Assembly: GCA_019429465.1 (NCBI GenBank) | Contig: JAHYIV010000002.1 | Coordinates: 62,001 to 126,000, forward strand | Source: Desulfoarculaceae bacterium | Lineage (GTDB): Bacteria; Desulfobacterota; Desulfobulbia; Desulfobulbales; Desulfocapsaceae | Direction: 5' to 3' | DNA length: 64,000 bases | Program-made: the position numbers and the translations under genes | Shown here: one piece after another, positions 1 to 3,880 of the stretch | Position numbering within the stretch: position 1 is the first letter of the stretch | Layout of the letters: every line of letters begins with the position of its first letter | Notes under the pieces: generated by a model | What the model saw: only the letters and a program-made list of their open reading frames with translations | Databases searched by the model: none | What the model was told of the DNA's origin: nothing

Positions 1-571
1 ACAGAGCCCGGATGTCACCGGCATCCACCCCGCTGCCGGCGACCAGTTCAGCCGTCAGGGCATTGATACAGGAAACAATGTTCTGCTGCAGGAGAGCAAG
101 ACCGGGATCGATGAAGGAAAAATCCACCTCCCGCATTTTCCTCCTCTCCTGAGTGGCCTGATGAATGCGGCTGAGAATATCGGCCCCATATTCGATCTGG
201 CTGTTTTCACGCCCGGCCGAGGAAAGGACCCGGCCGGTAAGCAGATCCACCAGGGTCGCCTCCAGATGGGTGGTGCCAAGATCGAGGGCCATGGCCGGCA
301 ACATTGCCGGCAGTTCAGGCAGAAAATCGGCCAGCACCCATCTCTCGGGGAGATCATTGACCAGGGCGACCCCGGCAAACCCGGCCTGACGAAAACGTCT
401 GCACAGCGACACAACCCTGGCAAAAGGGATCTCCAGCGGTCGAGAATCGGGTAATATTGCCCTGAGGGCGCGGCGTAGACGATCAAGATCAGCACTATTG
501 TCCTGCAGACTGGGCTTTTCCGCCGTCAGATGGACAGGAAGGACAAAAGAGGTTATCTTTCTTAATACCAT
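1..571 (-). CDS. RACo-like ASKHA-domain protein (DUF4445 / corrinoid-protein reductive activator family), 3' part outside window
   Basis: Not in the ORF track because it runs off the window edge. Reverse-strand reading from ATG at 571: MVLRKITSFVLPVHLTAEKPSLQDNSADLDRLRRAL...AMALDLGTTHLEATLVDLLTGRVLSSAGRENSQIEYGADILSRIHQAT..., with the ASKHA phosphate-1 motif and the QIxYGADILSRI signature of DUF4445. Confidence 0.75.
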   Translation of the reverse strand, partial: MVLRKITSFVLPVHLTAEKPSLQDNSADLDRLRRALRAILPDSRPLEIPFARVVSLCRRFRQAGFAGVALVNDLPERWVLADFLPELPAMLPAMALDLGTTHLEATLVDLLTGRVLSSAGRENSQIEYGADILSRIHQATQERRKMREVDFSFIDPGLALLQQNIVSCINALTAELVAGSGVDAGDIRAL

Positions 572-764: not shown

Positions 765-1931
765 ATGATGGTACCTAATTTCAACAAAGAAGTGTCAACT
801 ATAATAGGTACCTTGCATAATAGGCACCGGAAAAAACAGGCTCTGATCTTGCTATTATTAAACCGCTACATACTGACCCAGTTTGTCAGGATCTTCTGCA
901 CTGTTGCCGCCGGCTTTGCTGCCATCTATATTCTTATCGACTTCTTTGAGAAGATAGACAATTTCATGGAGGCTGGCAAGCCGCTGAGCCTGGTCTTTCA
1001 GTTTTTCATCCTCAGCATTCCCTTTATCCTTGATCAACTCGGCCCGGTGCTTATCCTGCTCTCAGGGGTCATTACCATAGGCCTGCTCACTCATCGCCAT
1101 GAGCTGACAGCACTCAAGGCCGGTGGTATTCCACTTCGTGCCATTATCAGGCCGGCGCTCATCGGAGGGCTCATCTGCACCCTGCTTTTTCTGGCCATGG
1201 CCCAATGGCTGCTGCCGGTAACCATGTCCAGCACCAATACTATCTGGTACGAAAACATAAAAGGCATGGTCCCGCTGGGAATCTTTCGCAACGGACGCTA
1301 CTACTACAAAGGCCATGAGGGATTCTACTCCTTTGCCAGGCCCGATCCGCGCCAGGCCGTCTTTTTCAATTTCTCCTACTCAAGCTGGACCGATGAGTAC
1401 GACCTGGACACCCTGATCAGCGCCGAATCTGCTGAATGGAAAGATCAGGAATGGATACTCCATAACGGTCAGACCCAGGTGCGCTCAGGCAAAGACAACT
1501 ACCAGACCACACTCTTTACCGAGAAGAGAATTTTCCTGGCCGAGACCCCCGATGTTTTTTTTGTGCCTAAATATGAGGTATCCGAACTTTCCATAACCGC
1601 TCTCTATCAACGGATCCATAATCAGCGGACAGATGCGGAAAAAGTCAAGGCATGGGCAGATTTTTACGGCCGTATCTCCTACACCCTGCTCGGCTTGCCC
1701 CTGCTGCTGCTTGGCCTGCCCGTGCTCCTCATCTCGTACCAGAAATGGGGCCGTGATCTTTCCATTGCCATTCCCGCCAGCTGCGGGCTGGCCTTTGTGG
1801 CCTGGGGCCTCTGGGGAGCCCTGCAGTCGCTGGCCAGGGCCGATTACGTCCATCCCCTGCTGGCCGCGGTGATTATCCATCTTCTCTTTGGCAGCGCCGG
1901 ACTTTATCTCCTGCACAGACAAAATAAATGA
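765..1931 (+). CDS. lptG: LptG/LptF-family (YjgP/YjgQ) LPS export permease
   Basis: 388-aa membrane ORF with NRYILTQFVRIF...GFAAIYILIDFFEKIDNF and C-terminal TM segments typical of the family; true start probably TTG at 849. Confidence 0.8.
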   Translation: MMVPNFNKEVSTIIGTLHNRHRKKQALILLLLNRYILTQFVRIFCTVAAGFAAIYILIDFFEKIDNFMEAGKPLSLVFQFFILSIPFILDQLGPVLILLSGVITIGLLTHRHELTALKAGGIPLRAIIRPALIGGLICTLLFLAMAQWLLPVTMSSTNTIWYENIKGMVPLGIFRNGRYYYKGHEGFYSFARPDPRQAVFFNFSYSSWTDEYDLDTLISAESAEWKDQEWILHNGQTQVRSGKDNYQTTLFTEKRIFLAETPDVFFVPKYEVSELSITALYQRIHNQRTDAEKVKAWADFYGRISYTLLGLPLLLLGLPVLLISYQKWGRDLSIAIPASCGLAFVAWGLWGALQSLARADYVHPLLAAVIIHLLFGSAGLYLLHRQNK

Positions 1932-2752
1932 TCAAAATGCGTAAGAGTTCTGAAAAAAAAAGAATCGGTATTGTCGGGGTCCCGCCACTGGCAATCATCA
2001 AAAAGATAGAGGCAGAGGGGACCACGATCTTTGATCTGGATGAACCCCTCGTCAAGAGGGACATCGAGCTGGCCTCTTCCTATCTGCCCCGGGTCTTTTG
2101 CGCCATCCTGCGCACCGTGGTCATCAATGGTCTCAGCCTTAAACTGGATCGTATCTATATTGATGTCGGACCGGGAAAATGCGACTGTGCCCTGCATACC
2201 GCCACCATCCTGCACGACATCCTGCCGGAGACAACCGTCATCACCACCAGGAATCAAGACCGAAAAGACTTTGGCACCCCCCTCTGCACCAGCAAGATGC
2301 CCCTTGTTGACAAAATAAGCGCCATCACCAGGTCGGTGCAATCGGCCAAGCCTTACCAGGATCTTCCTGCCTGCACCCCTACGGCTGGTTTCTGGGGTGT
2401 GCCGCCGCGTGATTTTTCCCTGCTCAGCCTCTTCCCGGAGACGACCCATGTCTACGGCTGGACCCGCTGCATGGAGAACAAGACCCCTGACCACCAGAGA
2501 CTGGAGGCACAGATCAACTCGGATATCCCTACGGTCTTTTTTGCCCAGTCCTTCTGCGCCAAGACCGCACTGGCCAGACACCTGGCGAGCAGACACCCGC
2601 ACGGACTCTATGTCGACTGCGATGTTACGGCCGGCAACAGCGCCAAGGCAAAGATCGAGGCCTTTCTTGAACTTTCAGCGCCCCAGAAACAGGAGCTCAA
2701 AGGCCGTAAACCTGATTTCTGTCTTCTCTCCCCTGGCCTTCCGACCCCCTGA
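1928..2752 (+). CDS. uncharacterised cysteine-containing protein, translationally coupled to lptG
   Basis: 274-aa ORF whose ATG overlaps the lptG stop (ATGA); contains GPGKCDCALHT and several other Cys; no family recognised. Confidence 0.7.
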   Translation: MIKMRKSSEKKRIGIVGVPPLAIIKKIEAEGTTIFDLDEPLVKRDIELASSYLPRVFCAILRTVVINGLSLKLDRIYIDVGPGKCDCALHTATILHDILPETTVITTRNQDRKDFGTPLCTSKMPLVDKISAITRSVQSAKPYQDLPACTPTAGFWGVPPRDFSLLSLFPETTHVYGWTRCMENKTPDHQRLEAQINSDIPTVFFAQSFCAKTALARHLASRHPHGLYVDCDVTAGNSAKAKIEAFLELSAPQKQELKGRKPDFCLLSPGLPTP

Positions 2753-2754
2753 TT

Positions 2755-3405
2755 ATGCTCCTGGCTGATTTCGGAACCTCATACTGCAAGCTATGGGACA
2801 CCACAACCACCGCCCCTCTGCTCATTCCCACCAAGGAGATCGACCAGGACCTGCAGGTAGATCTTGCCACAGGGCATAACGGCAAACGGCACGCCAGCCG
2901 GTATGTCAATGAACTCACCGCCCTCGCCAGGGGCGGTAATGCCCTGATTGATGCGGACAACTACACCCTGCTCGACTGCGGCAGTCGGGATATCAAATTC
3001 ATCCGCTACGACCAGGGCAAGATCAAGAACATGGGCTGGAATGTGGAGTGTGGCGCCTCAATGGGTTTTACCATTGAACTGCTGGCACGTTACTACAACC
3101 TCGATTTTGCCACTATGCAGGTTCCTGAGAGCTCCTTCTCGGTGACCTGCGGGGTCCTGGGCATGAGCCATATCTTTGATGCGGTGGTGAGTGGAGCCAG
3201 CGAGGCCGAAGCAGTGGCCAAATTTGTCAAAGGAATTGCCCTGAATGCCTATAATTTTGCCGGCAGCCCTGATCTTATCTACCTTTCAGGCGGACTCTGC
3301 CACAACCCTTTATTCGTGGCCTCATTCCCCTGCGAGGTGGTGTCTCTGGGACGCTTTGTCCTCCTGCAGGGGCTGAAGACCATCTGCGACGAGCAGACAT
3401 ACTGA
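2755..3405 (+). CDS. BcrAD/BadFG/HgdC-like ASKHA ATPase (compact dehydratase-activator/archerase-like protein)
   Basis: 216-aa ORF: LLADFGTSYCKLWD (phosphate 1), LATGHNGKRH, LLDCGSRDIKFIRYDQGKIKNMGWNVECGASMGF, FSVTCGVLGMS, DLIYLSGGLCHNP; collinear with HgdC-type activators. Confidence 0.7.
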   Translation: MLLADFGTSYCKLWDTTTTAPLLIPTKEIDQDLQVDLATGHNGKRHASRYVNELTALARGGNALIDADNYTLLDCGSRDIKFIRYDQGKIKNMGWNVECGASMGFTIELLARYYNLDFATMQVPESSFSVTCGVLGMSHIFDAVVSGASEAEAVAKFVKGIALNAYNFAGSPDLIYLSGGLCHNPLFVASFPCEVVSLGRFVLLQGLKTICDEQTY

Positions 3406-3606: not shown

Positions 3607-3650
3607 AAAAAAAACGGTTCAGAAGGGACCCATTCTGAACCGTTTTTTTT
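3607..3650. terminator. bidirectional intrinsic terminator
   Basis: Perfect 18-bp stem AAAAAAAACGGTTCAGAA / TTCTGAACCGTTTTTTTT with 8-nt loop between convergent units. Confidence 0.9.
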
Positions 3651-3715: not shown

Positions 3716-3880
3716 TTACTTATCACTCTGCTTCTTCTTCTTCTCTTTCTTTTTGCCCTGCTCTTCTTTTTTCGATTTTCTACCCTCAACCTTACCGGCT
3801 AACGGACAGCTGGAACAACAACTGCCTTTTTTCTCAAATTTATGGCAACATTTTTTCTTGATCTTTTTAGAATCACCCAT
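3716..3880 (-). CDS. small Lys/Cys-rich protein (54 aa)
   Basis: Below ORF-track cutoff. Reverse translation: MGDSKKIKKKCCHKFEKKGSCCSSCPLAGKVEGRKSKKEEQGKKKEKKKKQSDK*. GAGG about 9 nt upstream of ATG; 15 nt downstream of the FKBP stop. Confidence 0.65.
   Translation of the reverse strand: MGDSKKIKKKCCHKFEKKGSCCSSCPLAGKVEGRKSKKEEQGKKKEKKKKQSDK

Follow-up and report, generated by a model that had tools for sequence, protein, structure and literature searches.

A conserved gene pair of Desulfobulbia encodes a probable two-component ATP-driven Fe-S electron-injection system

What does a compact HgdC-type ATPase serve when its gene lies downstream of lptG, and where is the protein that would accept its electron? 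This question arose from a locus near the beginning of the window, that is, the whole 64,000-nucleotide stretch of DNA analysed here. In the initial annotation, the lptF/lptG-family gene and the next two ORFs (here q1 and q2) were regarded as a coupled unit. It was considered that q2 encodes the ATPase, that no dehydratase or reductase subunit adjoins it, and that q1 matches no recognisable family. The locus is arranged as follows.

1..571, minus strand, continuing beyond the window (G000:C24:60931-62571): start of the gene of a RACo/RamA-type (AcsV-like, DUF4445) ASKHA protein, matching NF040756
765..1931, plus strand: lptF/lptG-family gene, directly 5′ of q1 and its operon neighbour across most of the class
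1928..2752, plus strand: q1, compact HgdAB/DCCP-fold protein of 274 aa, predicted [4Fe-4S] electron acceptor (AF2, Foldseek, invariant Cys)
2755..3405, plus strand: q2, compact HgdC/BadF-type ASKHA ATPase of 216 aa (TIGR00241, AF2, Foldseek)
3611..3650, plus strand: perfect 14-bp inverted repeat AAAACGGTTCAGAA-8 nt-TTCTGAACCGTTTT with a T run, found by eye in the sequence

As had been noticed initially, the start codon of q1 lies inside the lptG stop: the TGA of the lptG-like gene (1929-1931) shares an ATGA with the ATG of q1. The spacer between q1 and q2, which had been given as 3 nt, is 2 nt in the window. The tight linkage of the two genes is conserved, since q2 overlaps or abuts q1 (gap of -14 to 0 nt) in 55 of 66 homologous loci. 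The sole large interruption among these loci was found in L175, where two glycosyltransferase-like genes (276 and 577 aa) lie between q1 and q2. In another locus (L178, in a single-contig genome), q1 is broken into two frames by what looks like a frameshift midway through the gene, while q2 is intact; this may be a sequencing error or real. Judging from the sequence, the transcription of the unit probably ends at the inverted repeat and T run (3611-3650), a feature absent from the output of a consensus scan. Further downstream, positions 3722-3880 of the minus strand may encode a 53-aa Cys- and Lys-rich protein (MGDSKKIKKKCCHKFEKKGSCCSSCPLAG...), which is perhaps metal-binding.

Is q2 really an ATPase of the HgdC type? 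The q2 protein matched TIGR00241 (acyl-CoA dehydratase activase) at E 3.8e-10, with 39.7 bits against a curated cut-off of 125.4, and BcrAD_BadFG (PF01869) at E 6.3e-7, with 29.6 bits, just below the cut-off of 31.5. The BzdQ model also matched in a profile search, and among proteins of known structure, the activators HadI, HgdC, and DCCP-R matched the q2 sequence at E 1e-7 to 1e-8. The AlphaFold (AF2) model of q2 has a pLDDT of 88, and its top Foldseek target is DCCP-R (7yyl; E 1.9e-13, probability 1.00), followed by the activators of aryl-CoA reductases and the HAD activators. Pantothenate kinases came far behind, which argues against an Fe-S-free ASKHA family. The phosphate and adenosine motifs of ASKHA proteins, DFGTS, LDCGSRD, and LSGGL, are invariant or nearly so among the q2 homologs. 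Two cysteines align with the cluster cysteines of HgdC-type proteins.

3049..3051, plus strand: q2 Cys99 codon (NVECGASMG), first inter-subunit cluster cysteine, by alignment
3148..3150, plus strand: q2 Cys132 codon (SVTCGVLG), second inter-subunit cluster cysteine, by alignment

Both are invariant in 52/52 homologs, as the initial annotation would lead one to expect. When 24 ordinary activators from the same order are aligned with q2, their two cysteines fall in register with C99 and C132 in every case. The q2 homologs form one fully supported group apart from these 24 activators; this group has two further cysteines of its own, C182 and C193, which hardly vary within it. Thus, the family models and the structure matches to HgdC, HadI, and DCCP-R bear out that q2 is a compact HgdC/BadF-type ASKHA ATPase carrying both cluster cysteines.

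Then what is q1? Simple sequence searches returned almost no matches. Against HGD-D (PF06050), q1 scored 14.3 bits (curated cut-off 28.4); the Pfam model matched 4 of 25 members of the q1 family (best E 9e-4), and a profile search found no HGD-D match in the distant q1 orthologs. A whole-length comparison of q1 with the HGD-D profile was weak (probability below 1%) and is not informative for the fold; the half-by-half profile comparison and the structure search are. The N-terminal halves matched each other at E 0.012 and the C-terminal halves at E 0.004, whereas swapping the halves gave 0.28 and 0.47. The AF2 model, with a pLDDT of 78 for the best of five predictions and 50-70 for the remaining four, is of moderate confidence and consists of two Rossmann-like alpha/beta domains. 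With this model, Foldseek found nine PDB chains below E 1e-3, all of them HadC, DCCP, BzdN/O, or MbdN, with HadC as the best match (E 4e-7); after a gap, the list continues with unrelated proteins. The conserved core spans approximately residues 12-252 in a family of about 240-275 aa, and the C-terminal tail is unconserved. The middle helical domain, which forms the CoA channel, is absent; about 15 residues join the two domains with no helix bundle. By its predicted structure, q1 belongs to the HgdAB/benzoyl-CoA-reductase/DCCP fold as a compact and very divergent member, probably a miniature one with one cluster and without a CoA site. The initial annotation therefore has to be corrected: q1 does belong to a recognisable fold, and, because this is the HGD fold, the acceptor subunit thought to be missing beside q2 is the neighbouring gene.

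The cysteines of q1 were compared, by alignment, with those of the HGD-D family, whose domain limits and ligand sets were taken from the literature (PMC11971306). In that work, the single-cluster subunit BzdO uses C95, C128, and C380, while the double-cubane subunit BzdN has six cysteine ligands (PMC11971306). Four cysteines of q1, C58, C85, C181, and C210, are invariant in the family, including the orthologs of other bacterial families at about 42% identity.

2099..2101, plus strand: q1 Cys58 codon, putative LPRxxC ligand (BzdO C95; HadC chain position 72), from the ungapped phmmer alignment to 3o3m_B and the ligand list of PMC11971306
2180..2182, plus strand: q1 Cys85 codon (GPGKCD), putative TCDG ligand (BzdO C128; HadC chain position 99), from phmmer to 3o3m_B, PMC11971306, and the profile alignment
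2468..2470, plus strand: q1 Cys181 codon (GWTRCMENKTP), located where double-cubane proteins have a ligand of the distal sub-cluster; invariant, with an ambiguous register (EESC or DCAxFTPN)
2555..2557, plus strand: q1 Cys210 codon (AQSFC), putative QFC/KFC ligand (BzdO C380), from the profile alignment; conserved in all rows

In the phmmer alignment, C58 and C85 fall on Cys72 and Cys99 of the HadC chain with no gap. By motif position, C58, C85, and C210 would correspond to the ligand set of the proximal [4Fe-4S] cluster. Thus, GPGKCD, formerly listed as a motif of an unrecognised protein, would hold the second cluster cysteine of the HGD-D family. In place of the first double-cubane ligand q1 has an invariant glycine (Gly17), and it lacks one distal ligand region; at most four of the six cysteines of a double-cubane [8Fe-9S] cluster are kept.

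Are the two genes always found together? Among 58 relatives, q1 is present in 45, and q2 adjoins it wherever the assembly covers the flank, and the reverse, so the co-occurrence implied by the initial annotation holds in every q1-positive relative with an assembled flank. In 13 pair-negative genomes with intact synteny, q1 and q2 are cleanly missing together, and the RACo-like gene is missing too. The two genes are an obligate pair and are lost jointly. The genome of the window (G000) has no further HGD-D protein and no second activase, and q1 and q2 must therefore serve each other. A separate DCCP-like pair is also present in many relatives. In a class-wide draw, q1 was found in 116 of 145 Desulfobulbia genomes and in 43 of 52 genera; in a phylum-wide draw of Desulfobacterota, it occurred in only two families outside Desulfobulbia. 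The pair is chromosomal, vertically kept, and near class-wide in Desulfobulbia. Plasmids and viral contigs gave no match to q1-q2, which speaks against phage or plasmid cargo.

How would such a pair work? ATP-driven electron injection of the HgdC/BcrAD type is among the few biological routes to potentials below that of ferredoxin. So far, it is known to act on CoA esters, on lipid esters, and on a handful of small molecules. It is probable, at roughly 80%, that q1 and q2 constitute a two-component ATP-driven Fe-S electron-injection system. For cluster type, ATPase coupling, electron flow, and target, I infer the following scheme. A q2 dimer would hold one [4Fe-4S] cluster between two copies of Cys99 and Cys132 and would receive an electron from a ferredoxin-type donor. 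The binding and hydrolysis of ATP would push the electron, at very low potential, from the q2 cluster to an Fe-S cluster of q1 ligated by Cys58, Cys85, and Cys210 and, as the fourth ligand, possibly by Cys181. Given its predicted HGD fold, q1 is likely to be the acceptor of the low-potential electron, as had been suggested; it would pass the electron on and thereby reduce another target, such as a protein-bound cofactor or a small molecule. Since q1 lacks the middle helical domain with the CoA channel, this target is probably not an acyl-CoA.

Described systems provide the closest comparisons. DCCP/DCCP-R (6eno, 7yyl) likewise combines an ASKHA ATPase having two conserved cluster cysteines with one adjoining HGD-fold subunit, and it supplied the best Foldseek target for q2 and one of the best for q1. 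However, DCCP is 421 aa in length against about 240-275 aa for q1, and q1 differs further in having four double-cubane cysteines instead of six and in lacking the middle helical domain. In the (R)-2-hydroxyisocaproyl-CoA dehydratase HadBC with its activator HadI (3o3m, 4eht), HadC is the top structural match of q1, and its Cys72 and Cys99 align with C58 and C85, whereas q1-q2 has neither a second subunit nor a CoA domain, and q2 is about 50 residues shorter. The class I benzoyl-CoA reductases BzdNOPQ and MbdONPQ have the fold and the ATPase type in common with the pair, and C95, C128, and C380 of BzdO resemble C58, C85, and C210 of q1; unlike q1-q2, they consist of four subunits and act on a CoA ester. 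The methyl-coenzyme-M-reductase activation complex was considered as an analogue and set aside as unrelated; it combines an ATPase of the ABC type with nitrogenase-like clusters. Since q1 and q2 fall below both family cut-offs and the CoA domain of HGD-D is absent, the pair would work like DCCP/DCCP-R without being a described enzyme. Thus, the "undescribed redox system" proposed initially stands insofar as the pair is not one of the described enzymes, but it is a divergent member of a known system type with the HgdAB/DCCP/BzdN fold. A minimal version of this kind, lacking the CoA domain and vertically kept across the class, would mean a new use of HgdC/BcrAD chemistry, and it would be the smallest system for studying this type of ATP-driven electron injection.

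What, then, is reduced? A canonical (R)-2-hydroxyacyl-CoA dehydratase or aryl-CoA reductase is highly improbable: the fold and the activator family agree with it, but there is one short subunit instead of two, the CoA-binding middle domain is absent, and the scores are below the family cut-offs. The operon position next to lptFG suggests a lipid- or LPS-linked reductase. The plasmalogen synthase PlsA, a large activase/HGD-type reductase, offers a comparison, and such plasmalogen-forming reductases are of the BcrAD/HGD type. Two reductase genes are reported to convert diacyl lipids to plasmalogens in anaerobes (PMC9702350). The lptFG genes adjoin the pair in most of 67 loci, and in one other family lolCD and bamA, together with lysS, lie near q1-q2. 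In a third family, however, the pair lies between metallo-hydrolases and NADH-dehydrogenase-like (NuoEF-like) genes, and lptG stays in the 13 genomes that have lost the pair, which makes a lipid-linked role improbable, though less so than a canonical enzyme. The retention of lptG also leaves lptG unsupported as a functional partner, and, because the neighbours of q1-q2 differ in these two other families, lptG is a positional neighbour. Of the lptG-coupled unit in the initial annotation, the ATGA overlap and the tight q1-q2 linkage are retained, while a functional role of lptG finds no support in the present evidence.

Two further proposals are special cases of the electron-injection system and concern its target. 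According to one, q1 is the catalytic subunit of a DCCP-like small-molecule reductase with an open Fe site. DCCP-R is the nearest ATPase structure to q2, DCCP is among the matches of q1, and DCCP is known to reduce acetylene, hydrazine, and azide (PMC11971306). On the other hand, q1 retains just four of the six cysteines of a double cubane, with Gly17 at the first position and one distal ligand region deleted, and there would be no open site if Cys181 is the fourth ligand. I consider this proposal possible, with the odds leaning against it. According to the other, somewhat less probable, the target is a corrinoid protein, and the electron passed from q2 to q1 is the low-potential electron that a truncated RACo is missing for the reduction of cob(II)alamin to cob(I)alamin.

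The corrinoid proposal derives from the divergent neighbour of lptG. Its product resembles the corrinoid activators RACo, AcsV, and RamA in matching NF040756 (E 4e-131, 438 of 800 bits), but the match begins at model position 131 of 632, and the N-terminal [2Fe-2S] domain is absent throughout its ortholog group. The ancestral order in the class is the RACo-like gene, then crcB, lptF/lptG, q1, and q2. In many families the gene of the ferredoxin-less RACo (cluster c3, in 41 of 67 loci) adjoins lptFG-q1-q2 in divergent orientation. Of the 58 relatives, 35 of the 45 with the pair have the truncated RACo, as against none of the 13 without it (Fisher 3.6e-7, uncorrected for phylogeny); it never occurs without the pair. 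In two families the loss is nested, RACo first and then the pair. RamA-like DUF4445 proteins are known in Desulfovibrio to reactivate B12 for methionine synthase (PMC5764234). Against this, the association of RACo with the pair is not independent of phylogeny and synteny, nearly all relatives have full-length RACo paralogs, and RACo normally needs no second ATPase. Ten pair-positive relatives (one of them only 59% complete) lack the truncated RACo; the lead is therefore incomplete, and the pair should have another role or partner in these ten. Corrinoid reactivation is the best functional lead for the pair, albeit a weak one. Should the pair indeed be linked to the ferredoxin-less RACo, this would join two ATP-driven reductive activation systems so far treated separately.

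Does the methionine synthase inventory fit? In the window's genome and its pair-positive genus-mates, the MetH activation domain, homocysteine methyltransferase (PF02574), and MetE/core-MetE (PF01717) were not found, while a genus-mate without the pair (G002) has a full-length MetH including the activation domain. It is conceivable, but unlikely, that the genes form a separate corrinoid-reactivation module in this genus without a detected known methionine synthase, where the HgdC-type ATPase would charge a [4Fe-4S] carrier with a miniature HGD fold, and this carrier would take the place of the built-in ferredoxin domain of the truncated RACo. A replacement of the MetH activation domain by the pair was rejected. 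A control search revealed that lptG is absent as well from the G002 assembly (83% complete), which most likely does not include this locus at all. Across the class, the pair coexists with split MetH and homocysteine methyltransferases. MetE/core-MetE as a complement in pair-negative genomes was unsupported, since the PF01717 matches are merely scattered.

A DUF362 gene (E 6.8e-37) was found just 3′ of q2 in 14 of 67 pair-positive loci (L013, L127, L174, L177, and others); it is also kept in 6 of 13 pair-negative loci and is thus unlinked to the pair. In two loci of one family (L125 and L126, family f53), the pair is followed on one strand by genes for a glyoxalase-II-like hydrolase, a Cys-rich protein, and NuoE/NuoF-like subunits, which may represent an electron-supply context.
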